From assembly GCA_003116875.1 (NCBI GenBank), contig BCKT01000005.1, positions 1,302,001 to 1,366,000 of the forward strand: DNA of 64,000 nt, in the 5' to 3' direction. Below, piece by piece: positions 3,469-47,492 of the stretch (position 1 is the first letter of the stretch; every line of letters starts with the position of its first letter). Under the pieces are notes generated by a model that saw only the letters and a list, made by a program, of their open reading frames with translations, made no database searches and was not told the origin of the DNA. Origin of the DNA: Takashimella koratensis. Its lineage: Eukaryota; Basidiomycota; Tremellomycetes; Trichosporonales; Tetragoniomycetaceae. Both the position numbers and the translations under genes were made by a program.

Positions 3469-3565
3469 NNNNNNNNNNNNNNNNNNNNNNNNNNNNNNNN
3501 NNNNNNNNNNNNNNNNNNNNNNNNNNNNNNNNNNNNNNNNNNNNNNNNNNNNNNNNNNNNNNNNN
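3469..3565. other. Assembly gap (97 Ns)
   Basis: A run of 97 Ns flanked on both sides by GGGAGGGG/GGGGAGGGGGA purine repeat. The flanks suggest an unresolved polypurine tract, so the true length may differ. Confidence 0.99.
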
Positions 3566-14758: not shown

Positions 14759-17700
14759 ATGAGCTCGAGGTCTCGTCTACGCCGCCCTGTCGACAGGAGT
14801 GGCCCCGTCTCGCCAATCTCTGCAGCCGAGTCATCAACGTCCGCTCGGTCCAGGGCGTCAGGAGCATCTAGAGCGTCCGACCGGGACGACCCGTTTGACC
14901 TTGAGCCAGACCTCGAGACTCCTAGTCGATCTGAAAGTCTAGACGACGACTACGACTACGAGAAGGTACGGAGGAGTCTCGAAGAGAGCGCAAGTGGTCG
15001 GCATCGAGAAGAAGTCGATGAGGATGAACGAGACCGAAATCGGTCGGACAAGGAAGGAGAGGAGGAGGACAAGGACGACAGAGATTATGATAGGGAACCC
15101 AACGATGACGATCTCGCTAGTCCTAGACGGGATGACCGGGCGGGCGAAGACTATGACGAAGATGAAAAGGGGAAGAATTCGAAGGATGACGGGGATAACG
15201 CAGAGGTCCAGTTGGGTGAGAACACCGACAACGACATGAAAGATGATCGTGATGAGCCCTCAGGCGGACTAGTCGACGAGTCTGAAGACTTGACTGGGGC
15301 CAAAGTGTCTCGGAATCGCCGATCTTCGTCTCGAGACTGGAGACAACAGCTCGTCCGTCTCCTATCACTTTGTACGTACCTCCTCCGTTCCTCCACTGCT
15401 GCCCTCTCCGTTCCTCGGCTCTCCACCTCGCCAATTTCCTCTCATGACTCTTACTAACTCCGTACATCTCTAGACCTCATACCGGTCCTCCTTATCGTCC
15501 CCATCTCACTAGTCCTTCACCTCATTTCTCGCCTCCTTACCCCACTCTACAACTCTCTTCCTCTCCAACTCCACACTCCAGTCATTTACCTTCTCTGGGC
15601 ACCTATCGTCCCCCTCTTCCTCATTGCGCACCACACCCTCTCCCCTCTCTTCCCTTCCCCTTCTTCAACTTCCCCGACGGACAGCGACCGAGATGCGACG
15701 AGCGATATCACGAGCAGGACGCCAGTGGGACTCGCGATCGACGCGAGGACGTGTTTGACTCTCACGGCGATGGGAGGGGATTTAGTTTCTGTCTACGCAA
15801 GGGATATAGGAAGTGCCTGTGGCCAGGTATTGGGCCCGATCTTTGGCGCCGCTGCGGCGAGGTACCTCCTAGGTGCGGGGCTGGTCACTGGACTCACGGC
15901 GTTCGCACTGCTCTGCTTCGTAAGTCTACTCATCCATCTCCCTTCAAACGTAACGTCACCACGTCGCCACGTCACCACGTGTACATCTACTCTGGCTGAC
16001 TAGATCGTGTAGGACCACGCCTCACCACTACCCGTTTCCACTCCTACATCGAAACACAAACCGACCAAAGGCGCTACGAATTCTCACAAGCTCAGCACCA
16101 TCGATATCCCGCTCTTCCTTGGTGCGCTATTGAGGTGCGCCGTGTTCCTCGCGCATGTCTGGGTTGGCGAACGGACATGGGCGCGGGTCCTCGCTCCTTC
16201 TGCACATGGCAACTTTCTCGCTACGTTGCTAGTGAGCCATGCCGAGACTTCGGTGAGCCTTTCTTGTTATACTTTTCATTACATGTAACCTATCTCTGAC
16301 CTTCGTGTTTGACACTCGCAGATCCTCTGCGTTTCCGTCCTCCTCACCATTCTCACCCTCTTCCTTCGCCCCTCCCCCTCTCCGATTCTCCCCTTCCCCA
16401 CCCCCCTCCTCCGCCTCCTCCCTCCTTCCCTATCTCACCTAGCCTCTCCTACCCTCCTCGTCCGCTTGCCCCTCCTCATCCTCGCGATCAGACAACACCT
16501 CTTCCTCCGCCCTCTTCCGCCATTCACCACTCCCTCAGGCGACTTGCGCGTCCTCTCTTCCACACAGAGCCTCACGGGCAGGATCGTGGTTGCCGAAAAC
16601 CTGAGAGATGGGTATAGGTTCCTAAGGTGTGATCATTCAATACTGGGTGGGAATTGGGTAAAGGTGGATCCGAAAGGACAAACTCAATTGGGAGACTCGT
16701 GAGTTCATGTACTCTGTTGCCAATTTCTGGGTCGTACAGGTGCACAGCCGGAACATGCTAATGAATGCAGAATCTTCGCGACCTTCCCACAGCAGGAAGT
16801 CGCGGTACTTGTCGATCCCGGACCTTTGGACCTTGGTGCGCGGCGAACGATTGAGATCTCAACAGGCCTCGAGATCCCACCAGATACCCAGGACGAAACA
16901 ACGACCATCCAGCGAAAAGGGAACGACGAACCCAAGCGAACCCTTGTATTGTGAGCTCCGACGACCGATCTCCAAGCGTTGAGCTGACACCGTGGACAGA
17001 GGACTCGGGGTTGGGATTGGAGCTGTATCTTTCTCTCGCCGGGGGTACGCCGTCGACGTTATAGGTGCGGTCTCAAGGCTACACAACGCTCGGTTTGCCT
17101 AGCCGCTGACGCAAGCAGAGATCGATTCGGCGGTATACAACGCTGCCAAGATGTACTTCCACATGAGCACGACACCACCAGACACCGTCCACCTCGTTGA
17201 CGGAGCGGCGTTCATCCATTCGGCCGCGAACGTGTCACGGTCGCTTCGGTTGCGTCCTAGTCCGATTGAAGAACGCGAAGATGGCGACGAGGCTGGTAGC
17301 GAGAAGCGCAAGACAAGCAGCGATCTGAAGAGTGAGATGGCCAAGGAGGGGGTTGAGAAGGCCCAGAAGTGGAACGTTGTCGTGCAGGATTGTTACAGTG
17401 CCGGTTCTGTCCCTTTTGAACTATTCACCAAAGAGTTTTGGACCGACGTTGTCGAAGTTCTCACCTACGACGGCTTAGTGGTAGTTGTGAGTAAATGTTT
17501 TCTGAGCTTCTCTCATTCAGCTATGCCCACACATTCTGCCCCTACTCGTTCTGTCCGCTTGAGGCTGACGTTGACTCTGACACTCGTTGGCAGAACTACG
17601 CGGGCGTATTGGCCACTCAGTCTGCGAAGATGGCGTTCACTACTCTGCTTTCAGTGTTTCCGCAATGTCGAGCGTTTAAAGATGTCATGGAACGTGATTT

Positions 17701-18248
17701 AGGTCCTCGAGACTTATCCAACCTAGTTCGTCCAACTCTCTCACCCCGATTCTTCCCTTCACCATCTCCACTTTCTTATCAGCTCTCGCCTACCCACTTG
17801 TAACTCATCTGACTTCTTATCAGGTAATAATCTGCTCCCATCGCCTCGACCCATTACTCACTTTCCGCCGCCCCACGGCTCCAGACGTACTTCGCTCTCC
17901 GATACGGTCACACGTCTTCTCGACTTTCCTGAGGACAGAGGTATCGTTGAGTGATTGGGCGGAGATCGGGGAAGATGGGGAGGTGGATGAGGGGATGGTT
18001 CTGAGGTCGAAAAAGTGGGTGGGTGTGAGTGAGGAGGATGGAGAGGGTAAAATGGGAGAGGGGGGAGAGAATATGGTAGGTATGGAGGAGGCAGAGGGAG
18101 AAGAGGATGGGTGGGGGGAGAAAGAAGGGAGAGAGGTGGCGGCTGCTGCTTGGAGGGCTATGCAGAAACGTGAGTAGGACTTGGAGAGCTCGGGGAGTTG
18201 CTGACGCTGGCGGCAGTGTTGACCCCGGAAATGTGGAAAGCGTATTGA
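14759..18248 (+). CDS. Membrane protein with C-terminal spermidine-synthase-like domain
   Basis: Ten exons give about 932 aa: 14759-15371, 15474-15919, 16013-16252, 16322-16698, 16771-16950, 17000-17064, 17119-17486, 17594-17725, 17824-18169, 18217-18248. Residues 1-200 are charged and very acidic (DDYDYEK, DEDERDRNRSDKEGEEED). Hydrophobic segments follow (LIPVLLIVPISLVLHLISRL, YLLWAPIVPLFLIAHHTL, LGAGLVTGLTAFALLCF, VSVLLTILTLFL), predicting an integral membrane region. The soluble domain has the aminopropyltransferase-fold SAM motif (GLGVGIG, residues 620-626), acidic EID at 641-643, and VVVQDCYSAGSVPFELFTKEFW, equivalent to the VDAFSxxxxPxxLLTxEF block of atypical spermidine-synthase-like proteins. 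Whether it makes a polyamine is not shown. Residues after about 840 are acidic and low-complexity. The 17725 donor (GTTCGT) is unusual. Confidence 0.8.
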
Positions 18249-18640
18249 GCCGTAATTACAATGCTCTTGTCAGGTATGACATCTAAAGAGCGTGACGGGC
18301 ACGCAACAGCGACGATAAGGGATGGATTGACTACTGTACATATCTGATATTGTCAATCTTACCATTGTTTTGGTCTTTCCCTTGTATCTCGCGTGAATAA
18401 CGGATGTCGGTCTGATTCGACGTTCAACCCTTTGTGTCTCCCCTGTTGCAGACATGTCAAATACTACATGTCCTACCGAGTCAAACCTTTGTGATTAGCC
18501 CTTGTGCACTCCGCAATTGGCTAGCTGCCTGACATTTACTGTACTCTATATGTATGTCTCTTCACCACCATTTCTTTCCCCTCTTCAGTGATCGTCACAT
18601 TACACGCACTACCGTAATCTCACTTTACACATCAAACACC
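18249..18640. other. Upstream region of array copy 1
   Basis: No gene seen. It contains a possible TATA-like CTATATGTATG at about 18545-18555, 90 bp before the copy 1 start codon, in a CT-rich leader. Confidence 0.4.
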
Positions 18641-19360
18641 ATGGCTACCTCCAACGCCGACGCCGAATCCGCCACAACTCTTTCCTCCCATACGGGTATC
18701 CTCATCGCCTCGACCGATGCGTGCGGCTCCGAGTCCGACTCCGCTGCTCTCCCCTCGAATTACTGCATCACCTGGGAGGGCATCATTCCTACCTCTGAGA
18801 ACCAAGCAGAGAAGACTCACCAGTGGTCTCTATTCATCATCAAAGACCCTCACCCCCGGATCGGCGCCACGACATACTCGAACTACAAGGGCATTTGGTC
18901 GGGATCGCCTGATTCGGACAAAGTGACGAACCGGATCGTCAATCATCTCTCGGACATCAAGTTGAAAGACGAGGTATGCGGAACCGTCAATTACGTCGTC
19001 CGGAACGGGCGTGATTTCCGATGGGCCACGAACAAGCCTCGTTTGGGAGACATTTGGGATTTTGGTGCTCGACCCATATACCAGACGCGAGATGACAAGA
19101 CTCTCGTCGATCTACCCAGCTTGGAATTCCTCACGGCAGAAAACTGGGACAACGCTACCCTTCCTCCTCAGCTGATTGCGGTCATCGAAGAGCAAGTCAG
19201 TCTTGTACGCATGCCCCTCGGAGACATGACTTTTGACCCTCAAGCCACAGCTCTTCTCGAGAAGATGCGTGACGAAAAACCGACTCTCCCTCTCGATTTC
19301 GATCGCTCAAGGCTCATTGCGGTACTGAAGGACGACAACGGCCAGTGGAGTGTTTGGTAG
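18641..19360 (+). CDS. Uncharacterised array protein, copy 1 (intact)
   Basis: Single open frame of 239 aa with no recognisable intron; I do not recognise the family. It is alignable by eye with copies 2, 3, 4 and 6. Shared blocks are an N-terminal strand (HTGILIASTDACGSE), an LPSNYCITWEG block, HQWSLFIIKDPHPRIG, LEFLTAENWDNATLPPQLIA, VIEEQVSLVRMPLGD, a LLEKMRDEKPTLPLDFD block and the extreme C-terminus GQWSVW. There is no signal peptide, membrane segment or cysteine pattern, so the protein is probably a soluble, compact domain. The ATG was chosen because it is the first in-frame ATG, sits in a CACCATGG context and aligns with copy 2. An intact frame and conserved blocks argue for a functional gene; the role is unknown. 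Confidence 0.8.
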   Translation: MATSNADAESATTLSSHTGILIASTDACGSESDSAALPSNYCITWEGIIPTSENQAEKTHQWSLFIIKDPHPRIGATTYSNYKGIWSGSPDSDKVTNRIVNHLSDIKLKDEVCGTVNYVVRNGRDFRWATNKPRLGDIWDFGARPIYQTRDDKTLVDLPSLEFLTAENWDNATLPPQLIAVIEEQVSLVRMPLGDMTFDPQATALLEKMRDEKPTLPLDFDRSRLIAVLKDDNGQWSVW

Positions 19361-19437
19361 TTCACAATACTGTGGGGTGGTCGTTGAGCGCGATAGTGGA
19401 TATCGCAGAAGGGACACGGAGGCAAATGTCTACTGTT

Positions 19438-19500
19438 GAGAGGATTGATGTATATGACTGTGATAGGTGTTCTCTGTCAGCCGATGCATGGTATTGTCGA
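19438..19500 (+). repeat. Conserved 3'-flank block of array copy 1
   Basis: Begins GAGAGGATTGATGTATATGA and ends CCGATGCATGGTATTGTCGA. The same block, with a few substitutions, follows copy 2 (20707-20769), and its first 21 bases follow copy 7. It lies 78 bp beyond the stop codon, so it is probably part of the duplicated 3' UTR. Confidence 0.75.
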
Positions 19501-19802
19501 AAGAGCTGTCTTTGTTCAGCAATTCTCATGATGCTCTGAAGCTAGACTTGGAAGGCTTATTGACGCGTGTACACCTACCGCGTCATATGACTGCCATTGT
19601 CATTCAAAGGATCGATCTGACGTTTTGTCCTCCTCTCCAGATGTCAACCCTTTATGGTCACCGTTTTGAAATCCGATGGTGTGACAACGTGACGCAGCCT
19701 CCTCTGATCATGGGAAACACGGTCGTCCTTTGTATCTGCTGACGTGCAACTGCTGTTGCCTCACACGCGCAGTCCAGACGCTGTACGTGCGGCTCTCCCA
19801 CA

Positions 19803-19812
19803 CATATAAAAC
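19803..19812 (+). promoter_or_regulatory. TATA box of array copy 2
   Basis: CATATAAAAC lies 110-117 bp before the copy 2 ATG, in a spacing typical of a TATA promoter with a leader of about 80 nt. It is the clearest core promoter in the array. Confidence 0.55.
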
Positions 19813-19919
19813 CTAGTCCCCTCGCCGCCTGATTCCAACTCCACGCAAATTTCTACCTCTTGGCTAACTATCATTTTTTTCAAATATACACATAGCAAGT
19901 TCAATACTTACCGCTCCTC

Positions 19920-20636
19920 ATGGCCACCCCTGACAATGAATCCGACCTACATGTGATTTCACATGTACGAATACTCGTTGCCTCAAGGGACGCATGCGGC
20001 TCCGAGGATGTCGCAGCCCGTCTCCCGAGCAGTTTTGCTCTTAAATGGACCGGCACAAAGCCCGGCCCTACCTCCACTGAGAGGGAGACTCATCATTTCA
20101 CCATGTTCATTCTCAAAGACCCACGCCTCCGCATCGGTGTTGCGACTGCTGAAACCCCGGAAGGACTCTGGTGTGGATCGCGCGACCTCAACGAGAACAC
20201 GATTCGGGTAGAGCCAGACGCCAAAAAGGTGCTGGAGGACCGTATGGACATCGCCACGAGCGATGCTATCATAGCATCCGCATGGTCTGACAGTAGCTCA
20301 AGGGAGCTAATCGAGTCCCAATACACGGACAACATCTCGTGCCTCTACCAGAAGAGAGAAGATGGTGACTTCACCATTACTCCTCCCAAGTTGGAGTTCC
20401 TCACTGCAAACTCTTGGGACAACCTTCCTCCTCACCTGCGCGCCGTTATCAAAGACCAAGTAAGTTTCAAGTTTCAGCCACTTGAAGACCCCACCAAAGT
20501 GTGGACTATGAACGCCGAAGACACGCAGCTTCTGAAGAGGATGGCAGATGACACATCGTCTCTCTCCGCTGATTTTGATCATTCTAAGATCCTCTTCACT
20601 CAGGAGAATGACAAAGGCAACTGGTCGATTTGGTGA
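19920..20636 (+). CDS. Uncharacterised array protein, copy 2 (intact)
   Basis: Single open frame of 238 aa, same unrecognised family as copy 1. It shares VRILVASRDACGSED with GILIASTDACGSE of copy 1, then LPSSFALKWTG, HHFTMFILKDPRLRIGVAT, KLEFLTANSWDNLPPHLR, AVIKDQVSFKFQPLEDP, QLLKRMADDTSSLSADFDHS and the terminal GNWSIW. The centre (residues 75-150) is divergent between copies while the N- and C-terminal blocks are conserved. No intron, signal peptide or membrane segment is seen. The start aligns with copy 1, and a TATAAAA element lies upstream. The 3' flank is homologous to that of copy 1, so the duplicated unit extends beyond the coding region. Function unknown. Confidence 0.82.
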   Translation: MATPDNESDLHVISHVRILVASRDACGSEDVAARLPSSFALKWTGTKPGPTSTERETHHFTMFILKDPRLRIGVATAETPEGLWCGSRDLNENTIRVEPDAKKVLEDRMDIATSDAIIASAWSDSSSRELIESQYTDNISCLYQKREDGDFTITPPKLEFLTANSWDNLPPHLRAVIKDQVSFKFQPLEDPTKVWTMNAEDTQLLKRMADDTSSLSADFDHSKILFTQENDKGNWSIW

Positions 20637-20706
20637 TCAAACGTTCTTGCTGTCGTACTTGAGATAGTTATCATAGCGAAGGATCACCGGAGGAGGTCCC
20701 CGTGTC

Positions 20707-20769
20707 GAGAGGATTGATATACACGGCTATGATGGGTGTGGCGGATGAGCCGATGCATGAGATTGTCGA
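20707..20769 (+). repeat. Conserved 3'-flank block of array copy 2
   Basis: Begins GAGAGGATTGATATACACGG and contains GAGCCGATGCATGAGATTGTCGA, matching the block after copy 1 at most positions. Confidence 0.75.
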
Positions 20770-20929
20770 GCAAGACTGTGATCGCTGAGAAATTCCCAAT
20801 GCCCACACCTGAAACGTGCGAGCCGGGACGAGGGTTTCCAATGATACCTTATTCGCACGCGCCATGTGAATGCTATAACAACAACGGATAGATCGTCAGT
20901 GGGTGTGAACTGTCTGCAACAAGCCGGAG

Positions 20930-21072
20930 ACTGCTTTAGGTCATCTTGTCTATCTTTGATGTGAACATTCGAGAAGATCATCAGCGACGACTCGACCACC
21001 TCTGCAAGCTTCAGCTCGTCAATGCATATCGGGTTGGAAAAGGGCGAAGGCGGGAAATGGACCATGTGATAA
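20930..21072 (+). pseudogene. C-terminal relic of an array family member
   Basis: Translating the + strand gives SIFDVN in one frame and, after a frameshift, FEKIISDDSTTSASFSSS followed by IGLEKGEGGKWTM and a stop. This matches the C-terminus of copy 3 (VFDVNETGLVQTIVSDESN, then LIGVKKTEDGKWTVR). No N-terminal part is found upstream. It is read as a decayed duplicate, which makes the array longer than its open frames suggest. Confidence 0.7.
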
Positions 21073-21699
21073 CCCATTCCACTTCACCAATGCACCAAGG
21101 GTCGTGCATAAGTGAATGAGACCAGTGGGATGGAATGACGCAACATGGTCAGAACATGAGGCGGATGTTTGCAGTGAGCTGAAGGGGAGAAGAGTACTTC
21201 CTGATGCGCGGACTGTCATCAGTCAATAATCAGTGGAGCGATAGAAATGTATTAAAGGATGAGTTCTTATCGTAAAAACATCCACACCATTCTGACAAGC
21301 GTATTGTTGAAAATTCGCTAGATTGGGCTGGATCATGTCCCTCGTAGCACTGACCGATTTGGTGTACCACCGTACTACATTTTACCCACGTAAACTCTGA
21401 CTGTTCTATGTACAGTACATAAGCAGCCCTCTTGTACAAATATTCCTTTTGAGCTGTTGTCTTCAACTCTTTGTCCAGCTGCCTTCCAGGAGCGGGGACT
21501 ATTCCGCTACCGACTCGGCTGTCGTGGAAGGCGAGTCAGGAATACCTCACAACTGCCTTCTACTTGCGACATTTTGGTGTTTTCGCCATTCTGCGAGCCT
21601 GTATAGCTTTCGACTAGATTGTTTCTTTTGTACTACTCTCTCCTTTTGAAAGTTTGTCTCCGAACCGCAGATAACGACGGCTAGTCGAAAATGTTTTTC

Positions 21700-21711
21700 T
21701 GTATATATGTA
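21700..21711 (+). promoter_or_regulatory. TATA-like element of array copy 3
   Basis: TGTATATATGTA lies about 135 bp before the copy 3 ATG. The core promoter appears intact even though the coding region has a premature stop. Confidence 0.4.
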
Positions 21712-21839
21712 CAGATACACACTGCTCTCCTCTTGTCTGCTTGACTATTCCACAAGACAGTCTTTGAGTCGTATACACTGAACCCAACACAGTACAAGAA
21801 CTCATTCGCCACCTACACAACAGCCTACTACCGAACGTG

Positions 21840-22571
21840 ATGTCTAGCAGCCTCCGCAGTTTGTTTGGGTCTCGAAAAAGACCCAACACCACTTCGGAAG
21901 ACATAACTGAGCATGTTGGTGTACTTGTTGGCACTAAGAACCTCTTAGGCCCCAATGACATGTTTGACAGCTTTGTTGTCAGCTGGGACGGCTGGGACTC
22001 TGTTTCGGGCCAACACAACTGGAATTCGCTTGTCATACCGGACCCACGGGCTTAGAAGAAGCAAGACAATTTTGATGACGAAACTCTCACTTTGAATCGT
22101 TGGCTGGGCAAGAGCAACAACATTGGGGGCCCATACAATACCAAGACTCTCGGTGAGGCTGTCACGGAAGTTCGTTCGAAACTGCAAGAAAAGATGGTTT
22201 CTCGCGGCTATGAGACTTCCGCGGAACAGAGCTTTAAATGGGCTTACAAAGACCACGTCGGTCAGCTTTATTCGACCGCCGCCGAAATGGGAGGCCGTCG
22301 CATGGTTTTTTTGGTTCCCCCTAACTTGACGTTTCTCGACGACAAGACTTGGAATTCGCTTGATTTACAGCTCCGTTCGGCTCTCAAGGATCAGATCAGC
22401 CTCCAGTATCCGCCTGCGGAAGAAGCTAACAAAGGCTGGGTATTTGATGTCAACGAGACGGGCTTAGTCCAGACGATTGTCAGCGATGAATCAAATCTCT
22501 CGGTCCGCTTTGATTCCTCAGAGCTGATCGGAGTGAAGAAGACCGAAGACGGAAAATGGACCGTACGGTAG
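21840..22571 (+). pseudogene. Array family copy 3, one in-frame TAG (codon 72)
   Basis: The frame is open from ATG 21840 to TAG 22569-22571 (243 codons) except for a single TAG at 22053-22055. Upstream, VGVLVGTKNLLGPND, FVVSWDGWDSV and HNWNSLVIPDPRA align with the N-terminal blocks of copies 1 and 2; downstream, LTFLDDKTWNSLDLQLR, SALKDQISLQYPPAEEANKG and DGKWTVR align with the C-terminal blocks. The stop falls just after the IPDPR block. No intron spans it. Either a very recent pseudogene, a sequencing error, or a readthrough gene; the first product would be 71 aa. It has a longer basic N-terminus (LRSLFGSRKR) than copies 1 and 2. Confidence 0.7.
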
Positions 22572-23645
22572 CACCCCATACTCTATTTGTACGTCTTTTC
22601 TCGAGTAAATGTGGTAGAATGAACGGATTGGTATTTTCAAAGAGGGTGTGAGTGTTGACCAGAGTGCGAGCAGTTTGAAGAAGAGGTAAGAGATGGTTTG
22701 TCGGATCAGCCAATAGTGATAGCTAGAGAGAGGGCTGGTGACATGCGAAGATGAGAAGGAGACTGGCAGTACGGTGTGACCAGATTACTATTCTATTCCT
22801 TTGCGATGCTAGCTATCATTACAGTTATTCAGCGATACATACTTGCAATTCAGTGCTCTTTAGAGGCATGAATGGTGGGAGAGAACCCGGTCGATGATGG
22901 GGAATCGAGCATGATGGAGGTGATAAGTCTCACAACGTGCAGATTGTGAAGTTTCTGCAATTGCAACAAAGCTTTAATACAAGGGGGACCAGAAAACAGA
23001 CTATTTGGTTGACACCCGCTATACCTCCCAAATCTCTGTCTTCTTCACTCGATCTAAATAGAATTTGAGTCCCCCTATCATGAAATCTGCAAAGTATTCT
23101 GCCCCAAGGGATTTTGGACTTGACGGTGGTTCTGGAATCACATGTTTCACGGGACTACAGTACAGTACCACCGGACTACAGCTCATACGGCAACCTCAGT
23201 TGCGTTGGAGGAGCGCTAGTGTGCAGAATTACTATGAGGCTGGACTGCACAGTGGGCTTGAGACCCTACGAGCTTGAGCTGCTGAGAGATATTTGTCACC
23301 GAGTCGTCTCTCGGTTGAAGGGATTTCTGGCAGTCTCATTGCAAAATGTCCATGCCATTGTTCAAGATAATCCTTTTGTCCCACATCCCTTTGAAAAACT
23401 GCCGCCGAGGAGAGGAGCCGGAGTTTCTGGCAACAGTCTTTCCTTGTTGTTGTACTTTTATCCTACATCCTTTCCAGCAGTTGTTTTCGAGTCTCAAACG
23501 TGGGTCAATCCAGCGTTGGTCTTTTGTATGATATACGCTGAAGCCCCCTCTCTTTCCATTCCTTTCCTCCCCAACGACAGTACACCGTATCGTTTTCAGC
23601 TCTCCCCCCCGCTTTCACTCACCCACTCGATCGTTGCCATACAAG
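22572..23645. other. Spacer between array copies 3 and 4
   Basis: About 1.07 kb, moderately AT-rich. A frame at 23114-23710 is open but overlaps copy 4 out of frame and has no family similarity. No TATA box as clear as those of copies 2 and 3. No gene supported. Confidence 0.45.
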
Positions 23646-24293
23646 ATGCCTGGCAATCCGAAGATCCTCTCAGACATCGACATTATCACTGTCGCTACGG
23701 TACTCGCTGATGACGACATCTGCAGTCCCGATCAGTCGGCCCGCGGTCTTGAGTCGAACTATGTTTTAGATTGGAGATCCACTGTGTATGATTCAACTTG
23801 GAAAGAGGTGGGATACCCTCGTTTTACCTTGTTCGTAATCAAGGACCCGCGCGTGTGTCGTGAGCAGCCATCTGCTGAACTCTGTAGCAATACTCAGGAT
23901 AACTCTAAGGAACTCAGCAAGATCCGAACCACTGAGGGGCCTTTCACCGATATGACCCTACTAGCGAGCCTGAAGCAGATTCGCGAAAGGCTGCAAATCG
24001 GGCTATCCAAGCTCCGGAAACCGTCCGATCAAGACGAAATGCATGCAGTTTATACTACGCACGTTTGGCGCCTGTACTCCCTGCCTAGCGACAAAGAGGT
24101 ATTCCAGCCTCCCGAGTTGAAGTCGCTCACTACGCAGAACTGGGGATCACTTCCCTCGGGACTTCGAAAGAATATCAGAGACCACGTATGCAAGCAATAC
24201 CCTCCAGTCAAGGGAGGCATGATGTTTTGGACCTTCGATCCGAGGACTCAAGCTCTGCTCGACTGGATCGTCGAAGATGATTGTCAAGCCTAG
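23646..24293 (+). CDS. Uncharacterised array protein, copy 4 (C-terminally short)
   Basis: Single open frame of 215 aa. Family blocks are IITVATVLADDDICSPDQ, LESNYVLDWRS, RFTLFVIKDPRVCRE, ELKSLTTQNWGSLPSGLRKN, IRDHVCKQYPPVKGG and FDPRTQALLDWIVEDD. It stops about 25 residues before the position where copies 1-3 end, so the FD-S-LI and KW-V-W tail blocks are missing; the bases after the TAG do not encode them. The next-to-last block is intact, so the gene may still give a stable protein, or this may be an early pseudogene. The start is the first in-frame ATG (ACAAGATGC). Function unknown. Confidence 0.65.
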   Translation: MPGNPKILSDIDIITVATVLADDDICSPDQSARGLESNYVLDWRSTVYDSTWKEVGYPRFTLFVIKDPRVCREQPSAELCSNTQDNSKELSKIRTTEGPFTDMTLLASLKQIRERLQIGLSKLRKPSDQDEMHAVYTTHVWRLYSLPSDKEVFQPPELKSLTTQNWGSLPSGLRKNIRDHVCKQYPPVKGGMMFWTFDPRTQALLDWIVEDDCQA

Positions 24294-24711
24294 GACTCTA
24301 CGGATCAACTAACCAGCAAGTGGTTTCTCGTTTCACGCCGCTTCGCCTTTCTTCAAACATAGGACGAAGCTACACACTCAATTCTTGTAAAAATTTTAGG
24401 TACTGATTATGCAAATTTCTTCCTCTCAAGCCACCCATTAACGGGTCACTTTCGCGGAAGCACGTCATAATCTTGCCTTTTTGTGCCGCTACCTTGCGTC
24501 TACATTATCCTGCTCTTGTGACCTCCCTTTTCTTCAAGAACGGCACCAGCACCATGGGAAGGCCGGCGCCATTACCATCGAGTGAGGACTCTACATACGA
24601 GAACCCTGAGACGACTCGACCGGAAGCGACAACAAGTAAACGACTACCTTGCCCTCGGACCGAAATGATACCGGGACGACAGTTGCGTCGGCGTTCAAGG
24701 AAGGTGACATC
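24294..24711. other. Spacer between array copies 4 and 5
   Basis: No recognisable family N-terminus is found in any frame ahead of the copy 5 relic, so its 5' half is either deleted or decayed past recognition. Confidence 0.4.
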
Positions 24712-24995
24712 ATGGACGAATCTTCTCTCTACCCGCTCATGCTTGTCAGCAGCCTCTCGGGGTGCGCTTACTGGCTCAGCCTTCCCGACCAGCTACGTGC
24801 CCTCATCAAGGCCCAAGTCAGCTTCGAGTCTGTCGATCGAGAGCCGGACAACAGCGTCGTCGTCGCCGACAACTCCTCGTCAAGACCTTCACTCAGTACG
24901 GCGTAGGGCGGGCAGACCTTGCCGCCACATTCAACTACTCCAAGCTCCCAGGTGCTCTGCTGTAGAAGGAGGACGGCAAGTGGTCTGTCTGGTGA
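24712..24995 (+). pseudogene. Array family copy 5, C-terminal half only, frameshifted
   Basis: A frame from 24712 reads WLSLPDQLRALIKAQVSFES, matching the LPxxLRAxIKDQVSF block. The match then moves to another frame at about 24880 (ADLAATFNYSKLPGALL), meets TAG at 24963, and continues in that frame as KEDGKWSVW and TGA at 24993. One frameshift plus one stop and no N-terminal half mark it as a true pseudogene. Confidence 0.75.
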
Positions 24996-25976
24996 CAGCA
25001 CCCACCACACTAATCTGTGCATGTGAAGCAAGAGTTGCTAGGCGAGTCCTCTGCGTACCTTGGCAAGCCTCAGTTTGTACATATCTTTACAGTCATTTGC
25101 CGTTTGCTTTTCTCTTTCACTCCTTGTCCCCCTTCCACCTCACCAACTCCGCTACACTCTACCCTCCAGCACATTCGTCTTTGGATGCGTCTACCGCACA
25201 CTTTTACTTTCGACACCAAACAAAGGATAGCGCAATGTCAGAGGGCTATAAGCTCTGGTGTCTTTCACCACGACTGTTGACCGAGCTCTTTGTCGTTTCC
25301 CTGAGGTCTCCTCCCTTCTTATTATGACCATTTTGACCATTTTTAAAGCCTCTCGACACCTCGCTGTCATATATTTGTGTAAGTGGGCATGACTTCTGAT
25401 GTAGACTTTGGCCCTCTGCCTATGGTAGTCCTCCTTCTTTTCATTCCCCTTTGTATTCTTCGACGCTTTTGGATCTTCTAGGCTCAGGTCAGAGGCCTGT
25501 GGGGTCCCGCGCCCCGCGTCTTAGAAAGATATTGATAGGGCAGGGAGCTTCAAGTGTGACGTCCTGCTTGACAAACGTTTTTTCAGGCAGTTAATCCTTT
25601 CTAGTGGGCTGACTCACGGCGCTCTGAACGAAAATCCGTACTCTCCCGTCCTCAAGTCGAATTCCCTCGTCCTCGGCCCCCCTTTCCCCAGATCTCTCCA
25701 CTTTCTCTCTTTTTCATTACTCTCACGCATTCACTCCCTGTTCACCAACTTACATTTATCTCTACCCCCCTCGCCCCTCCTCTCGTATCTTCTGAAGTCC
25801 AGTTATTCACTGGTTTCCCTGCGCTCCTCTGCCACCTCCCCCTTCCCATCTCTCCGCATTCAAAGCATCGTCCCCCCCGACACACTACAACACCTTTTTG
25901 GGAAGTAATCGCTTTTTACCCAGCCATTCCAGTCGACCATCGTTGCCAGTCGACACTCGCAAGAAACATCAGCCTC
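24996..25976. other. Spacer between array copies 5 and 6
   Basis: Nearly 1 kb, pyrimidine-rich towards 25700-25900 as in a fungal promoter or leader. No gene, relic or long repeat recognised. Confidence 0.45.
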
Positions 25977-26675
25977 ATGTCATCGCAACGTACTGCCGGA
26001 TGGCGCTACATTTCACACGTCGGTATTTTGGTGGCTTCACGAGATCTTTTCGCCCACGGCAATGCTTCCGATGCTCCTTCTTCCAATCAGGTGATCGCAT
26101 GGAGCTCGGACATGGTCAATTCTTGCGACGCCACACACCATTGGGCATTTTTTGTCGTGACAGACCCCCGCGTTCATTTTACCGATGCAGCCGCATTGAT
26201 GTCCACTCACCCTCCGTGGACACAAGACTCCCCCGACGAAAGGAACGAGACAGAGCTCCTTACCACCCGCGAGTCAATGAGGTCAGGCATGCTTCTGGAT
26301 CACTCAGTCGCGCTTTCAACCAGCGGCATCAGGTCTTTATACAAGCAATAATTTGAGGACCTTTACACAGGCTGTTTGCCGATTTTGAAAGAGCTCTCCG
26401 CCCAAAACTGGGAAACACTGCCAAGACGACTTCGAGCAATCATCGCCGATCAAGTGCGTCCTGAATGGCCTTGTCGCCAGGGTTCCGAAGCGACGTGGAA
26501 TCTCAAGGACAGCGACAAAGCGTTTTTGGCGATGATCGGCTCCGATGAAGCGTCGCTTCCGACCACCTTCGACCGATTCACCATGCTTGACGCGAGGAAT
26601 CGACTCCAAGACCGGGATCGAGACCCGCCGTTGGACCCAGACACGCCAGAGTGGACACTCTGGACAGGGACTTGA
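25977..26675 (+). pseudogene. Array family copy 6, one in-frame TAA (codon 125)
   Basis: A frame of 233 codons from ATG 25977 to TGA 26673-26675 is broken only by TAA at 26349-26351. N-terminal blocks: SHVGILVASRDLFAHGNAS, SNQVIAWSSD and HHWAFFVVTDPRVHFTDA. C-terminal blocks after the stop: ILKELSAQNWETLPRRLR, AIIADQVRPEWP, AFLAMIGSDEASLPTTFDRF and TPEWTLW. The stop sits just ahead of the LxxLxAxNW block, where copies 1 and 2 have IYQTRDD and LYQKRED. No GT...AG intron removes it. Same alternatives as copy 3. Confidence 0.7.
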
Positions 26676-27918
26676 CGGAAGCGCATACCCTCCCTTTCCA
26701 GGGCGATGTGTCTAAATTATGCGGACTCCTGCCTCATCCAGTTCCAGCGCTGTCCCATTGAGGCCCATAGTGTCCTCATCCCCTTCCAGACAAGCGAGAC
26801 TGCCGTCCATATACTCTGCGTTGTACACAGCTTATCCCAGGGGGAAGCGGTGGGTGGAAAATTCATTTGCATGTTATGCAATCTGAGGGAGTTCTGTATT
26901 ACAAGACTTGTACCAGACCTGCTAGACCGTTTTCACGTTCCTTTCCCCTTTTCTCAGCCCTACTCACTCTCGTCCATCGCTATCGCTCCCTCCCTGGTCT
27001 CGCTCCGGCTTTCTTTAACATCACTACCATTGCTCTCTACATGGTTCACCGTCATTGCATCTGTACCCCCACGATCACCACGACCCTAGTTGAAGTATTT
27101 ATGAGTTCATACAGGATGCGAGCTCTCCTCCGTGCTGCTCTCCAGACATAGCAAAATTCTGGACCCCTCAATATACTGTACGAGGATGACAAGCTAGCTC
27201 CGAAATGTACGACAGATCTGAGGCAATGAAGACAGCGGGGTAGGGACTGAAGGAAAAGAAGGGGGAGCGAGACGGGGTGAGTTCCCCCATGATGCACTCA
27301 GAAAACCTATTTACGGCGAGTATTGTACCTTAGCGCCACCTACTTAGAGCATAGGAGGTCATTGCAGCCGGATCTCCTCACAGCAGCGAGTGCACCGATA
27401 ACCCTTTCCCCACTGCCGGCACCATTGGGCGACATTCATTGACAAAGGATCTTTCTACCTCCCAAGTTTGCTCGCAAATTCTTTCAGCCTTAGTCTAGTG
27501 GAAATTGATGTCATGCTGTGTTGCACATATCTTGATGTGTGGTTTACCGTGGGCCTTCGGTCGCTTTAACAAGGCCTCGTCGGTCAGGCATCAGATCCGA
27601 ACTCTGCTTCACCAGGAGCGATCGTTGAGCACAGTTTTGCCATCCACCACCCATAAGTAAGCGCACAAAGGGTCAAAAGATAAAAGAGGTCCAACTATGC
27701 GTTTCACTGTAAAGGTCTGTCAACTTGGCTTTGGTTAGACCTGGGCGCAGCACCAGAAGAACCTCACCTTTGTCCCGCAAAAAGGCCATTCGTCCAAGTA
27801 GTGAACCACTTCCTTGCCAGCTTTATGCCGGTTGTTGGCGTGCTGTGGCCGTGGGCCTTCGAGTGTCAGTCAGCACTGCCATATTTAACCGCAACCGCAG
27901 CAGCATCAGACATTACCG
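26676..27918. other. Spacer between array copies 6 and 7
   Basis: 1.24 kb without a recognisable gene. Frames at 26706-27151 and 27725-28138 have no motif, and the latter overlaps copy 7 out of frame. A TATTTAA lies at 27882, close to the copy 7 start. Confidence 0.45.
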
Positions 27919-29037
27919 ATGGTGGACAGTGAATCGGAAGGGTCATACTCTTCTGTCACCTCACAAGATGGCTTGGAGTCTGTGGTCGATGCCGGAGAAT
28001 ATGGCCGTGCATCCCCAGCTACTTCGGCAAGCTGGGAAGAGAGCGACCACGAGGACGATGACAATGACGACGACGATGATGACGAGGACGACGAGATCGG
28101 CGATGACGGCGTTGAGACCGCGAGCGACGTGGTCATAACGCCCGAGGAAGACTGGCGGAACGAGGCCGCGGCGGTCGATCTTGGTCGAAACCTGCCAGCG
28201 CTCGACAATACAGGCGCACGCGAGCCAGCTTTTCGAAGCAACCAACCCCTCTCAGCGGAGAGCATTGGCGATTTCGAGTTTTTTGACCTCAGGTGATTGG
28301 CGAACCATTCTAAGAATATCGGAACCTCTGACTTTCATTTCGCGTTCCTCTTGACTCCCGCCCAGCAGCTCGAAGATGGCACCATCGCCCACTGCTTTTC
28401 CACGGACCTTCTTCACTTTCAGTGGGCTTCGTTCAACACCACGACGAATCGAAACTCGGCGTTCACCCTTTACGTCGGGCACCTTTCCGAAACAAAATCC
28501 ACCATTGTCCGTCATGTTTCAGACGCCGACTACATCATCACCAGGCTACATGCTGTCGAGATGGACGTGAACAATGCCCAGAACATTGGCAACGATGACC
28601 ACACTCAAGCCCAAGAAATGGCGGTGGAAACAGAATCGACATTCGTGCATCCCAGCCACATCTCCATTCCTTTCTCCGACGCGGTGACGAAAGGCTACTC
28701 AACGCTCTTCCGAACCTCACCCAGTCTTCCAGTGACGGTCACTGAGCTCGACGACAAGATTTGGACTCGCTTTGCGGACGCCGATCCCGGCTCAAGCGCC
28801 AACAACGTGGGGCATTGGATTGCCTCACACATTGGGATGCAGTACAATCAGGAGGCAGAGGTTCGAGGAGACAATGCCGAGCAAGTGACGGACACTCGCG
28901 CTTTGCTCGACCGAATGATCGAATCGAACGACCCATCATTCGCTTTTCCGGACGGCATGGGAGATTCGTGCTGGTACATTAACAACTGGAAGGGGGGTGT
29001 TGCACGAGACAGCGGAAACGAGGAGGACACTGCCTGA
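27919..29037 (+). pseudogene. Array family copy 7 with acidic N-terminal extension, one in-frame TGA
   Basis: The frame from ATG 27919 to the stop at 29037 (373 codons) is broken only by TGA at 28294-28296. Residues 1-125 are very acidic (a DDDNDDDDDDEDDE run) and absent from copies 1-6. After the TGA come FHFAFLLTPAQQLEDG, LLHFQWASF, AFTLYVGHLSE, VTELDDKIWTRFADADP, VGHWIASHIGMQYNQEAE and DTRALLDRMIESNDPSFAF, in the same order as the family blocks but diverged, and closest to copy 8. The 3' flank shares GAGAGATTGATGCACACGGC with copies 1 and 2. Introns starting at the GTGATT beside the TGA would shift the frame. Pseudogene, readthrough or two-part gene cannot be told apart here. Confidence 0.6.
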
Positions 29038-29844
29038 GTGGTCGGTGGGTTTACTGTCGTACAATACCTTGGGGTGATCATTGTTCCATACTACTTGATT
29101 TGGTTCCATCAGAGAAGGAGGATTAAGAATCAGCGAGGAAGAGAGAGATTGATGCACACGGCTGCCATTTGCCAGCATTTCCACATGCTTCTGTTCCCGT
29201 TTACTTCTCTTATCTGTTTGACCGACCGCTCTACAAAGTGATATACTTATACGCTTTCTATTTTTGCATTATTAGCGACTCAAACTCTGGTGAGGAAGCC
29301 ATAGCAGTCATTCATGTCTCTCCACTTCTCTCCCCTCCTACCCCCGGCCACCCGAGACCCATGTCGGCTCTATTTGGCCTTTGGATTGTCCCATCCTTTG
29401 ACAGACATAACTCCGAAGGCAACGATGTCTCTCGGCCGACGTTGAGCACGTTCGCCCTCCCAGGCTTCATAAGTAGGCAATCACGGGGCTAAGCTATGAA
29501 AAGACGTCCAACTCGGTGTGTTTCGACTAGATAAAGTCAACAAGAAAGTTCCAATGTGCAACTTGTCCAGTCTGTGAAGATCCTTTGACTCTAGAGGGAG
29601 GGCGATTTTGACTTGCGTGTGGAGTGAGGATTCGCCATGGTTTGGTGGTAAGCCTTCGAGCATTTCTGGGAGGAGGTAGAGGGCGAGGGGTGTTCTTCCC
29701 TATGTTCCCTGTTTAGATACTACTGAGAGAGTACACCATCCCCTTCGTTTTCCTTGTCTTACCCCCTCCACCCCAGACTACCTCATCTCCCTCAGGTTCC
29801 CCATCCGTGCATTTCACTACCACACAGGACTTCGAAACTTCTCG
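29038..29844. other. Spacer between array copies 7 and 8
   Basis: Includes the conserved 3'-flank fragment at 29143-29163. Otherwise no recognisable gene. Confidence 0.45.
29143..29163 (+). repeat. Conserved 3'-flank fragment of array copy 7
   Basis: GAGAGATTGATGCACACGGC matches the 3'-flank blocks after copies 1 and 2, about 105 bp past the stop codon as compared with 70-80 bp there. Confidence 0.55.
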
Positions 29845-30810
29845 ATGGCCGACGCAGACCTTTCGAGACGGTCTTCGCCCGACCTTTCGGATGGCGGAAC
29901 CGTTTTCGAGCTGGATTTCGACCTCGAAGAGGTCACTGCTTCTCATGACACCCCTATGACTGGAATGTCTGACTTTTCCGGTGAGGAATCAGACGGTGAC
30001 GCCGACGACCCAGACGAAGACGAAGACTTGGACATTGGCACCGGCGACGACTCTTCTGACGAGGCTGTCGTCAAGTAAAAGGAGGGAAGATATCATCGCG
30101 AAGATTCACAACGACTTTGTCGAGGCTCGAAGACGTTACTTCTCGAACCACGATGTTTTCACAGCGGTGCTCTCCATCCCTGAGGAGCTCCTCGAGGATG
30201 ATCATGTCAAGTTACTCTTTGACAAGAAGGTTTATCACCTGCATTGGTCGTCGCGACATTCCTCAACCGGTCGATACTCGATTTGCAGCCTTTTCGTCGG
30301 CGACCTGTCTGAGATTGACATCCAGAGACTGCACGGCCTTGAGCACGAGTACGCAAACGGCGTCATCACAGCGCCGACTGGAGGTGAGGCTTCCAATACA
30401 AGCGCCGAAGTCTACCGCATGACGATCAGCAGCCTTGGTCGCCCTCGAAACTACCTACGATCCGACGCATCCCTTTGGATGACCGATTTCACCTTCCACC
30501 CATTCGATGGCCAACTGCTCAAAGTCCTTGCCGCTAAAGCTTTGAACACAACCACGACCAAAACGCCGTTGGCGACCGTCGCGAATTGGATTGCCAAGCA
30601 TGTTGGAAAGAAGCACTTTTCTTCGACGCACGTCATTGAAGACAGCCATGAGCCGCTCCGTGAACAAAGGCAACGGTTTTCGACTTCATTTCCAAGTTGG
30701 GCGACAGGTTGAGTCCCCTTTCCGGCGAGCTGTCCTTGCCTCAGTGGTCCGACTCCATCGCGCTGCGAGTCGCCGCCGCAGAGGAAGGGCGTGAAGCGGG
30801 TTCTATTTGA
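29845..30810 (+). pseudogene. Array family copy 8 with acidic N-terminus, two frameshifts
   Basis: ATG 29845 opens an acidic segment (DDPDEDEDLDIGTGDD) that stops at 30078. Family blocks continue in the +1 frame from about 30065: VFTAVLSIPEELLEDD, VYHLHWSS, SICSLFVGDLSE, LWMTDFTF and ATVANWIAKHVGKKHF, to a stop at 30712. The C-terminal match (VFDFISKLGDRLSPLSGE, then LPQW) returns to the original frame from about 30667 to TGA 30808-30810. The two shifts cancel. A 58-nt intron 30075-30132 would repair the first break but has a poor acceptor. Likely pseudogene; closest to copy 7. Confidence 0.55.
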
Positions 30811-31149
30811 GTGGCTGCTGGCGAGCGTTACCCGCATACAGATTTGCCGTCTGCTTGGTCATTTGCTGAATGCGCAGAGGAGGAGAGAAGAACAGAGTCG
30901 AGGATGGGTTCTCAGAGACAGATCTAATTATGATTGAAGACCGTACCATACCACGATACGTTCCTCCTCACATGCAGATCTCATTTATCTCGCTTGACTT
31001 GCTCTCGTATCGTGAGGATTCAATAAAGTACATGCTCATGAAGAGCCGAAACGCGAATAACCAAACATCAAAACAAACCGATCCCACCTAACCAACTCTG
31101 CCTCTCGACCCCACTCTGTCCCTTCCCATCAACTACGACCGAGCACAGC
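30811..31149. other. Convergent spacer, array copy 8 / gamma-tubulin
   Basis: About 340 bp, AT-rich in the middle (30920-31080), fitting two 3' UTRs. No gene seen. Confidence 0.5.
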
Positions 31150-33233
31150 TCACGACCCGTAATTGATATAGTTTGGGCTCTCACACGCCAGGTACTCATC
31201 CGCAAGCTCTGCTACTACCCTACGCGAGTCGTCAAACTCTTCAAGCCCGTTGGCGAACATGTCTTCTTTCTTGTATTGTTCGAGGAAGGCGTTTCGTTTA
31301 CGGAGTCGGTCGTATTGATCTATCATGCGTTTGAACAACTGTAACAAGGGATATCTGGTCAGCTGATATCATCACCAAGAATGCCACAGCTATGCACTCA
31401 CCGAAGCCATGCTAGTGTGATTGGCCATCATCACTCCGCTGACCCTATTCTGCGTCGTCTTTCGCTTCGTCAATGCGACTTGAATACTCGCCGGACCCCA
31501 GGGGATGAAGTTTGCGAGTTGACGTTCTCGGATTCGGAGCAGGGACTTGTGCACGTCGGTTGGGTCGACGTCACCTGAGATGATGTTGAGGCAAGAGATG
31601 TAGCAAGAGGATTTGGTAGAGGTTGTAGAGACCATGCGGTTCTTGGGTTGCAAAAGACGGCGCATGACGTCGAGTGTCGTGGTTTTCCGAATCGACTTGG
31701 CCTGAGGGTATTAGCGAGGAGGAAGTGAAGAGATTGTGATGAAAAGTGAAGCTGGGGAGCGAAACACACCTTGTCAATCTCGTCGCCGGTGAATGGGGTG
31801 TACGAGGTCATGAGGAAATGACACCGCGGTGTGGGGATAAGGCTCGCGATTATCCCGACGAGGTCGTTATTCATGTAGCTCGGGTAGCGTAGTGTGGTCG
31901 TGCTCGCGGCCATGACTGTTGACACCTGTGTTGGGCGACCCCGTCAGCTATCCTTCACCACGATATCTACCATTCTCTCTTCTCTGAGTCTCCCCTTGTC
32001 CTTTGCTGTTCAGCATCACTTACAAGTTGGTTTGTCTGCACAAAGCTCGGGTCCTGGATATGCAACCTGTCTGCCGCGATCCTCGTCAATGCCGCATTAT
32101 CAAGCACGACCACTGAATCGGCGTTATTGACCAGCCGTTTCATAGCGAGGAGTGAGTTGTATGGCTGGACGACGACGTCGGAGGATTCGGGGAAGACAGA
32201 GTAGGTCTGGATGAGTTTCTTTGGGAATCGGTCGTTGAGTCGTTCGAGGAGGAAAGAGCCGAGACCGGAGCCTGTCCCGCCCGCGATGGAATGGAGGAGC
32301 ATGAAGCCCTACGATCAGATGCAATTGAAGGGACAGAAACAGATGTGGAGTCAGTACGTTACGGTACAATGACGGTGAAAACGGGACTGCGCGAAGCTGG
32401 CTAGTGTCGTAGCTCGCACTCACCTCCAAACTGTCACTCCCATCCGCTTCTCGATCAATCATCTCCATGAGATCATCATAAACCCTCTCGCCTGCCCCGT
32501 ACCCTTGCGCCCAATTATTCCCCGCTCCGCCTCCATCCTTCGACACGTAGATGTTCTCGGGGTTGTACAGGCTTTTGAACGGCGAGGTGAGAATGGAGTT
32601 GATCACCTGTTGAGGTCATACCAAGTCACCGAAAGAACGGAAGATTGTGGGGAAGGCAGACATTGAGTCAGTGTCGGGACCACCGATGAAGAGAGGGAGA
32701 AAGTAGTCGCAAGACTCACCCTCGGCTCGAGGTCGATCAAGATTGCGCGTGGGATATAATGTTCGTCATCTGCTTGGTAGAAGAAGACATCTTTCCGATC
32801 CCCTTGGCCGCCTTCTGCTGCCCAATCTTCGAGGTTGCCCGTTGGTGAGATCCCATGTTCCGCACAAAGCTTTTGCCAGAACTGTGAGAGGTAGGAGAGG
32901 AAACGAGTACAGACGTTAGTGTGCGAAGGTTGGTTCGTGAAAGGTGATCAAGACTTACTTGCGCGCCGACTGGAGGTATCGAGTGAAGAGGTCAGCATTA
33001 CAGTCACGAGTCCAACGCGGCGATGACCACTACAGGATCAGTTGGAGTGGCTATTCACGCACTCTGGTTGCCTGCTTGTCCAGCCTGTGGTCGTCATCAG
33101 CACGAGTGTCTTTCATTTCGCACGCGCGTCATCGACCCTTGTTCATCCTCCTGCCCACACACCAAACCAGGAAGCACCGCCTCAGTCGTCAGCCGCAACG
33201 ACTTACCTGGAGCGAGATGATCTCGCGGCCCAT
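31150..33233 (-). CDS. TUB4: Gamma-tubulin
   Basis: Core subunit of the gamma-tubulin complex that nucleates microtubules at the spindle pole body. Nine exons (33233-33207, 33084-33063, 32969-32959, 32881-32720, 32606-32424, 32308-32024, 31925-31770, 31701-31402, 31338-31150) give about 444 aa, the usual length. The N-terminus [18 protein letters not shown] runs across three exons, the third only 11 nt. Also seen: [34 protein letters not shown], the tubulin signature GGTGSGLGS (from about residue 145), [34 protein letters not shown] and [36 protein letters not shown] is a typical gamma-tubulin C-terminus. The small-exon 5' end is supported by exact phase and sequence fit. Confidence 0.97.
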
Positions 33234-45049: not shown

Positions 45050-47492
45050 ATGGGCCTCGCATCCAAACTCGCTGCTGCGCAGTCGGGCGCTGGCGCTGCA
45101 CCCGCCGGAGGCGCCTACGGGTCCACCCAGCAATCTCAGTACGGCGCTCCTCCTCAGTCGCAGTACGGTGCACCCGCCGCGGGCGGGTACGGACAGCCTG
45201 CTGATCAGCAGTATGGCGCTCCGCCTGTCCCTCCTTCCCGGTGAGCTTACCATCCTTGCTGATCATCCCCCCTCCGCCAAGCCGAGTGATCTTGGCTTGG
45301 CTCTCGCACTGCTCTAACCACGACTAAAACTGACGAGCCCTCAGTCCCGGGCAGTCGGGCCAGCCGCAGTATGGACAACAGCCGCAGGGGCAGTACGGCC
45401 AGCAGTCGCAAGGTCAATACGGCCAGCAAGGTCAATACGGACAGCAGCCAGGCCAGCAGGGTCAGTACGGACAGCAGTCGCAGTACGGACAACAGCCTGG
45501 CCAGGGCCAGTATGGCCAACAGCCTCAGTACGGACAACAGCCCGGACAAGGTCAATACGGACAGCAGCCTGGTCAAGGTCAGTACGGCCAGCAGGGGCAG
45601 TACGGACAACAAGGCCAGCAAGGGCAGTACGGACAACAGCCGGGTCAAGGAGGCCAGTACGGCCAACAGGGACAGTACGGACAGCAAGGCCAGCAAGGAC
45701 AGTACGGCCAGCAGCCTGGTCAAGGACAGTACGGCGCCCCTCCAGGCCAGCCACCAAGCTACGGTCGGCCGCCCCAGGGCGCTCCCGGTGCCCCTGGGTT
45801 CGGAGCACCAGGTGCACCCCCCGCTGGAGGTGGAATGACCACCGACGCTGGGTTCTTGCTCCAGCAGCTTCAGAACTGCGTCACCGACGTGAGTAGTGTC
45901 GTATCCTCTTACAGCCGCCTTTTACCCCAACATGCTTTACCCTCATTTTCCTCACCTTCATCATTCCCTCATGATCGTCTTCGATACGTGGACATAGCTG
46001 ACAAAGTGTCTTCTCTTTCTTGCTCTGACCCGCGTTGGTGGTACGTCTATAGCAAAAGCTCCAGGCATTCTACCCGCCCGGAAGCCTCGACATGATCGCT
46101 GCACGCGTTGCGTCGTCGGGCGCTCTCGATAGGCTCTGCAACGAGTGGCGTATCCCGCGCGAGCTCGGCGCTGACCTCGTGAGTGGGAGTGTGGGGAGCT
46201 AGAGTTGCCTTCGCCCAAGAACCGAGCTGCTGGGGGCGACATAGTTGCAGAATTCAATGAGCGAAACAGAACTGCTCAAAGCTGATAACATGATCAGGTC
46301 AAGCTGTCCTTGTTCGACACGATCCTCTACGTCGACGATAGTGGCTCGATGGCGTTCGAGGAGAACGGCGAGCGCATTGACGATCTTAAGCTGTAAGTGG
46401 GGTTTTGGTAACCTTCTCTTGCCGCCTTGCTTTCGTTCGCTACCATTACATCAATGCAGTTCGGTGGCTGACGGATACAGTATCCTCTCCCGCGTGGCGT
46501 TTGCTACATCGTTGTTCGACCAGGACGGTATCGAGGTCCGGTTCATGAACTCGTCCCTTGAGGGTCGGGGCATCAACAGCGAGGCCGCGGTGAGTCCCGA
46601 GTCCAGCTTGACACCTCTTCATCTCTTCCTTCTTCCGTGTTTCTAGACTCCTCCACCCCAGTGCACTTCCCAAATCCATTTCTAAACCCTTCCCCCTTCC
46701 CATTTTTCTAATCCCGACCTTCACGCTTGACTAACACCGCCTAGGCAACCGCTCTCGTCAATCAAGTCAAGTTCTCCGGCCTTACCCCACTCGGTACCTC
46801 GCTTTGGAACAAAGTCCTCCAACCGCTCGTCCTCAACCCGGCGCGTTCAGGCCAACTCCAGAAACCCGTGCTTATTATCGCGATCACGGACGGGACGCCA
46901 GCTGGGGAGAACAAGGATGAAGTGTTTAATGTGATTATTCGTGCCGATCAAGAGTTGGGCAGGTCTAGGTATGGAAGGGACGCTGTTAGTTATCGTGAGT
47001 ACCACGAGCGTGCGACAGCGCGTGAGCGCCTAACAGTCTATGGCCGTGACTCAGGAAGTGATGAGCACGACTCAGCAGGCTGAGAGTAAGATAGGGAGCT
47101 GACATTATGGATTCGGCAGAATTCGCCCAAGTCGGTAACGATATGAAAGCGATGAAATTCCTTGAAGAACTTGATAACCACCCTGTGGTTGGTGGTCTCG
47201 TCGACTGCACATCCAACTTTGAAGCTGAGCAGGCCGAGATGCTCCGCAAGTCGGTAAGTCTATAGTATACTAAGGCGCCTCGGCCTGGGTCGAGCATCGA
47301 GAGGAGTGAGCCAAAAAAAAGGTTGGTGTTGATGATTTGAACAGGGTGTCAACCTCGAACCGGCAATGTGGATCACCAAGTTGCTCATGGGCCCGATCGA
47401 CTCGTCTTACGATACCAAGGGTGAGTGAGGGGTTTATGATTCGCTTTGTTTCTGGTTGCGATTCCGATACTGATTATCTTTTAGACGAGTGA
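45050..47492 (+). CDS. vWA-domain protein with QYGQQ-repeat prion-like N-terminus
   Basis: Nine exons (45050-45240, 45345-45888, 46053-46178, 46298-46392, 46481-46589, 46745-46994, 47120-47253, 47345-47420, 47485-47492) give about 510 aa. Residues 22-225 are low-complexity, with about 20 QYGQQ/QYGAP units built from Gln, Gly, Tyr and Pro, typical of prion-like regions. A conserved stretch ([40 protein letters not shown]) leads into a von Willebrand A domain: [15 protein letters not shown] has the MIDAS DxSxS (300-304), then [13 protein letters not shown] and [11 protein letters not shown] supply the remaining metal-site positions. The protein ends [13 protein letters not shown] with a last coding exon of 8 nt. 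The repeats also give a long Leu/Ala frame on the other strand, which is a shadow. Cellular role unknown. Confidence 0.87.

Follow-up and report, generated by a model that had tools for sequence, protein, structure and literature searches.

The 64,000-nucleotide stretch of Takashimella koratensis DNA analysed here (the window; contig BCKT01000005.1, hereafter C5, positions 1302001-1366000, in a genome of 25.1 Mb and 24 contigs) carries a tandem array of protein-coding units at positions 18641-30810. Nine units, all on the + strand and with a shared order of blocks, lie between a spermine-synthase-like gene and a tubulin gene; the span, the single orientation and the block order are confirmed as a first-pass annotation had described them. 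The reading that we favour, and to which we give somewhat better than even chances, is that the units form an orphan family, restricted to its lineage, whose small and soluble proteins would act inside the cells of this Tremellomycete. The family would have grown through tandem duplication, and most of its copies would now be decaying, by birth and death. In the anatomical part of this explanation we place considerable confidence. Tandem gene families restricted to particular taxa and evolving by birth and death are common in fungi, and the array resembles them in its single locus, its single orientation, its paralogues with 20-37% amino-acid identity and its mixture of intact, truncated and relic copies. 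It differs from them in that its family has no significant library match and no assigned role.

Five copies carry the evidence for a family. Copies c1 (18641-19360), c2 (19920-20636), c3 (21840-22571), c4 (23646-24293) and c6 (25977-26675) exceeded 300 of 300 shuffled sequences in all ten pairwise Smith-Waterman comparisons, with z ranging from 16.7 to 65.2. Only c1 and c2 are both complete and open: each is an intronless open reading frame (ORF), of 239 and 238 amino acids respectively, and they match one another with an E value of 1.3e-39. The c3 and c6 copies are full length and are interrupted by an in-frame TAG at 22053-22055 and an in-frame TAA at 26349-26351, while c4 is an open frame of 215 amino acids that stops short of the C-terminal D-F-D / W-x-W block. 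Two relics belong to the same family. The first, c5 (24555-24995), is frame-shifted; compared with c1 and c2, its pieces in two frames reached z values of 2.8 to 6.9 and 6.5 to 7.1, falling to chance level with some other copies. The second, at 20965-21066, is the C-terminal remnant of a further copy, with a matched part at 20971-21066 that shares 50% identity over 32 residues with c3 (E 0.039). The closing W-x-W, taken by the first-pass annotation as a block common to the copies, is kept in c1, c2, c5 and c6; it reads WTVR in c3 and WTM in the 20965 relic, and is absent from c4. TATA-like words were seen in the 300 bases before the start codon only in c1 (-94), c2 (-115) and c3 (-138), at about 18547, 19805 and 21702, and none was seen for c4 to c8.

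Introns that would remove the stops of c3 and c6 were considered and rejected: among 26 and four GT-AG pairs, respectively, of a length divisible by three in the stretches scanned, none had the branch-site pattern that was sought, and the alignment fits intronless copies. Over the whole array, breakage, truncation or reduction to a relic has affected seven of nine units. Whereas c1 and c2 are open, stops interrupt c3, c6 and c7, c4 is truncated, c5 and 20965-21066 are relics, and c8 is frame-shifted.

The last two units stand apart. c7 (27919-29037), a probable distant member, consists of an acidic N-terminal part and a core in one frame, interrupted by a TGA at 28294-28296. c8 (29845-30810), a relative of c7, has an acidic N-terminal part, a core in the next frame (30077-30709) and a C-terminal block in the first frame again, an arrangement that takes either two frame changes or a 58-base intron at 30075-30132 and one frame change. 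In both, the extra N-terminal part is very acidic, with an isoelectric point (pI) of about 4. For c7, an intron leading to a core starting at 28369 was rejected, as no GT donor at 28240-28299 could be paired in the right phase with an AG acceptor at 28330-28419; the core frame, moreover, extends upstream, and when the c7 tests were rerun with the core from 28297 their outcome was about unchanged.

The c7-c8 pair is well supported by Smith-Waterman scores against shuffles (z 12.4), and whole-genome searches with the two cores retrieved one another (E 0.31 and 0.0013) and none of c1 to c6. Pairwise scores against the five copies were at chance in nine of ten comparisons, including all those with c1, c2, c4 and c6; c3-c7 was marginal, with 4 of 300 shuffles reaching its score in one run and 6 of 500 in another. 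Profile scores also lay within their shuffles (118 of 1731 scoring shuffles reached that of c7, and 887 of 1663 that of c8), and so did, against a c7/c8 profile, those of c1 (782 of 1400), c2 (489 of 1509), c4 (186 of 1258) and c6 (964 of 1430), while that of c3 was reached by 11 of 1394. An hhalign score of 20.2 hints at a tie between c7 and the array, attained by 3 of 200 column shuffles and set against 13.6 for a reversed control. Furthermore, c3 and c7 share a 19-base in-frame match with one mismatch that none of 1000 codon shuffles produced, a match that was picked after being noticed. Likeness of the 3' flanks was discarded as evidence for c7: five of 36 flank pairs exceeded a z of 3 (c1-c2, c1-c7, c2-c7, relic-c5 and c5-c8), with c1-c7 reached by 1 of 200 shuffles and c2-c7 by none of 200, but unrelated pairs score equally well, as does, among 28 upstream pairs, c4-c8 (z 6.2, none of 200 shuffles). 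We regard c7 as a probable member of the c1-c6 family, and c8 as a probable member by way of c7. The eight copies and one relic of the first-pass annotation become, by our tally, five recognisable copies homologous in every pair, two relics, one of them not located in that annotation, and a pair of probable kinship, c7 and c8, whose tie to the rest is only suggestive and which does not rank equally with them; likewise, the comparison with shuffled sequences sets the five copies far above chance and leaves c7 and c8 mostly at chance against them.

No library places the family. None of nine array proteins or pieces, nor of three scanned subsequently, rose above a curated Pfam-A cut-off, the best match below threshold being Pex24p to a piece of c3 (E 0.069), and Pfam, NCBIfam, PHROGs and the PDB sequences gave no significant match; in particular, neither c1 nor c2 significantly matched a characterised domain there. 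Nothing among 5.8 billion proteins came up at E <= 10, whether the query was c1 (202 candidates) or the alignment of the five copies (2623 candidates). Collections from bacteria, archaea and viruses held no relative of c1 or c2, and the viral one none of c7. As a control, the protein search was run with the R3H/RRM gene 10 kb downstream, at window positions 41-43 kb, and gave 1964 proteins with E <= 0.001. At the head of the best 120 stood Cryptotrichosporon argae, at 61% identity across 79% of the query, together with Kwoniella and Naematelia, indicating that the protein database does hold Tremellomycetes. Within the genome itself, single-protein searches with c1, c2, c4, the second part of c3 and the cores of c7 and c8 returned only places in the array, apart from one on contig C9 in the c1 search (E 0.169), which adjoins a membrane-protein-like ORF and was taken as chance. 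These searches score only the best candidates, so that diverged copies may escape them, and they point to no convincing further member elsewhere in the 25 Mb. The openings of abstracts contained nothing relevant, from which we claim no absence from print.

The c1 and c2 proteins are acidic (pI 4.8-4.9) and of about 27 kDa, and no 19-residue stretch in either has a mean Kyte-Doolittle hydropathy above 1.0. On crude hydropathy and inspection only, neither a signal peptide nor a membrane segment is evident in c1, c2 or c4. Since they are acidic and lack such features, we would place c1 and c2 inside the cell. The two are conserved towards both ends, whereas their middle can hardly be aligned: nucleotide identity between c1 and c2 is 30-34% in the centre and 64-67% in the C-terminal block. 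Taken together, the library, shuffle and identity results support the earlier description of an unplaceable, locally expanded and decaying family with a variable centre.

The two open copies are only 37% identical in amino acids, with 0.64 non-synonymous (dN) and 1.47 synonymous (dS) substitutions per site. On a protein-guided alignment, the proportion of non-synonymous differences (pN) was below that of synonymous ones (pS) in all ten pairs, which suggests constraint; c1 and c2 are probably still under purifying selection, and c3 and c6, as we infer, were long constrained and were lost later. Pairwise pN and pS gave no evidence of diversifying or positive selection. These values also bear on the possibility that the array is a non-functional graveyard, in which c1 and c2 too are without a role and open by chance or by youth. 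Seven of nine units in disrepair are what such a graveyard would leave, but c1 and c2, distant as they are, have both kept about 239 codons open with pN below pS, and we find this explanation improbable.

Structure models of the family are weak (mean predicted local distance difference test, pLDDT, of 58.9 and 47.0) and matched no fold. The two models have a nearly identical order of elements, and a weak, near-whole-length overlap links the HORMA domain of ATG101/ATG13 to a low-confidence model. That the family is a known fold, HORMA-like or another, whose branch here has diverged too fast for sequence methods to see, we consider unlikely. With ends that are constant and a middle that varies, the proteins may consist of a scaffold and a region that confers specificity, a guess that we hold weakly and only as a tentative mechanism. 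An N-terminal strand-helix-strand-strand unit, the C-terminal helix (F-L-T-A-x-x-W-D-x-L-P-x-x-L-R) and a closing W-x-W strand pair would form a stable scaffold, while the variable middle would be a loop or a pair of helices determining the binding partner of each paralogue. That this amounts to a new fold in one fungal lineage, serving a small intracellular recognition family whose constant scaffold and variable middle are tuned by tandem birth and death, is a more speculative extension, to which we give only slim odds.

Local expansion, decay, a variable middle and the absence of any matching known family are also what one would see if the paralogues formed an intracellular self/non-self or conflict family, each recognising a different non-self protein through its middle, with the losers decaying; a role of this kind, or as effectors, had been raised on first inspection. 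The findings did not bear it out. No array piece that was scanned exceeded a Pfam cut-off, and no defence domain was found in ten selected ORFs from the rest of the window. PADLOC, run on four proteins, returned a single match, of 33 c7 residues to a cyclase model (E 0.0054), which was taken as chance. Hydropathy and inspection gave no N-terminal signal peptide of a secreted effector in c1, c2 or c4, and positive selection, as described above, is not supported. The nearest contig end is about 415 kb from the array, which also lies away from the contigs with STE3 matches: all seven exon matches fall on C2 and C15, and the array is on C5. The secretion, STE3-linkage and defence-domain tests therefore lend no support to such a role, which stays a guess, and a quite unlikely one. 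The STE3 exon matches comprise two sets close by at C15:465003-468970 and one at C2:2043636-2044573, the latter with a TGA within a match. A homeodomain match of 27.2 bits was detected in the window at 57253-57351, within a long ORF about 26 kb from the array; three of the four homeodomain places genome-wide are on C5, the other two there more than 350 kb away, and we could not tie the match near the array to mating type.

Several points weigh against an orphan family that is tandem-duplicated and mostly decaying. The stops in c3, c6 and c7 could be assembly errors, and c7 and c8 may lie outside the family. The best-scoring control match is only 61% identical. Judged by that one gene, the database is without a close relative, so that a family evolving fast could escape notice in it, and the orphan status may come partly from missing close relatives. 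Synonymous sites are near saturation, with dS infinite in three of ten pairs, and the protein-guided alignment lowers pN, leaving the reading of purifying selection rough and without a formal test. Because the structure models are weak, with confidence lowest in the variable middle, the scaffold and loop idea leans on alignment over structure. Finally, that c1 and c2 are expressed, and selected for function, is something we infer.

The non-coding stretches after c1 and c2 also resemble one another. The resembling parts, at 19392-19534 and, by local alignment, at 20663-20802 (both + strand), are identical at 103 of 136 aligned bases (75.7%), versus 13 of 29 fourfold sites in the coding regions, a likeness that may be exaggerated by the choice of the best local stretch. 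A 32-base pattern built from both copies occurs genome-wide, with up to three mismatches, only at c1 and c2, and Rfam gave nothing at gathering thresholds in 17000-32000. The flank was nevertheless not retained as a conserved element, as local alignment selects the best stretch and a fold from two sequences is too thin to argue from.

Some genes around the array look like housekeeping genes, judging from their Pfam matches. Five of ten selected ORFs outside the array matched Pfam at E <= 0.01, with the families UCH, Spermine_synth, Tubulin, R3H with RRM, and RasGAP_C. The spermine-synthase-like match, at 21.9 bits, falls slightly below the Pfam cut-off of 22.9; the gene on the other side has a Tubulin match, and we read it as a putative gamma-tubulin. 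Elsewhere in the window, a run of N occupies 3469-3565, and the ORF at 45334-46095 contains a long low-complexity repeat run.

If c1 and c2 are expressed, the array would hold a protein family that seems not to have been described so far, and a well-preserved record, at one locus, of how it duplicated and decayed, useful for studying the birth and death of orphan genes. A recognition role, if true, would raise the value of the family further.
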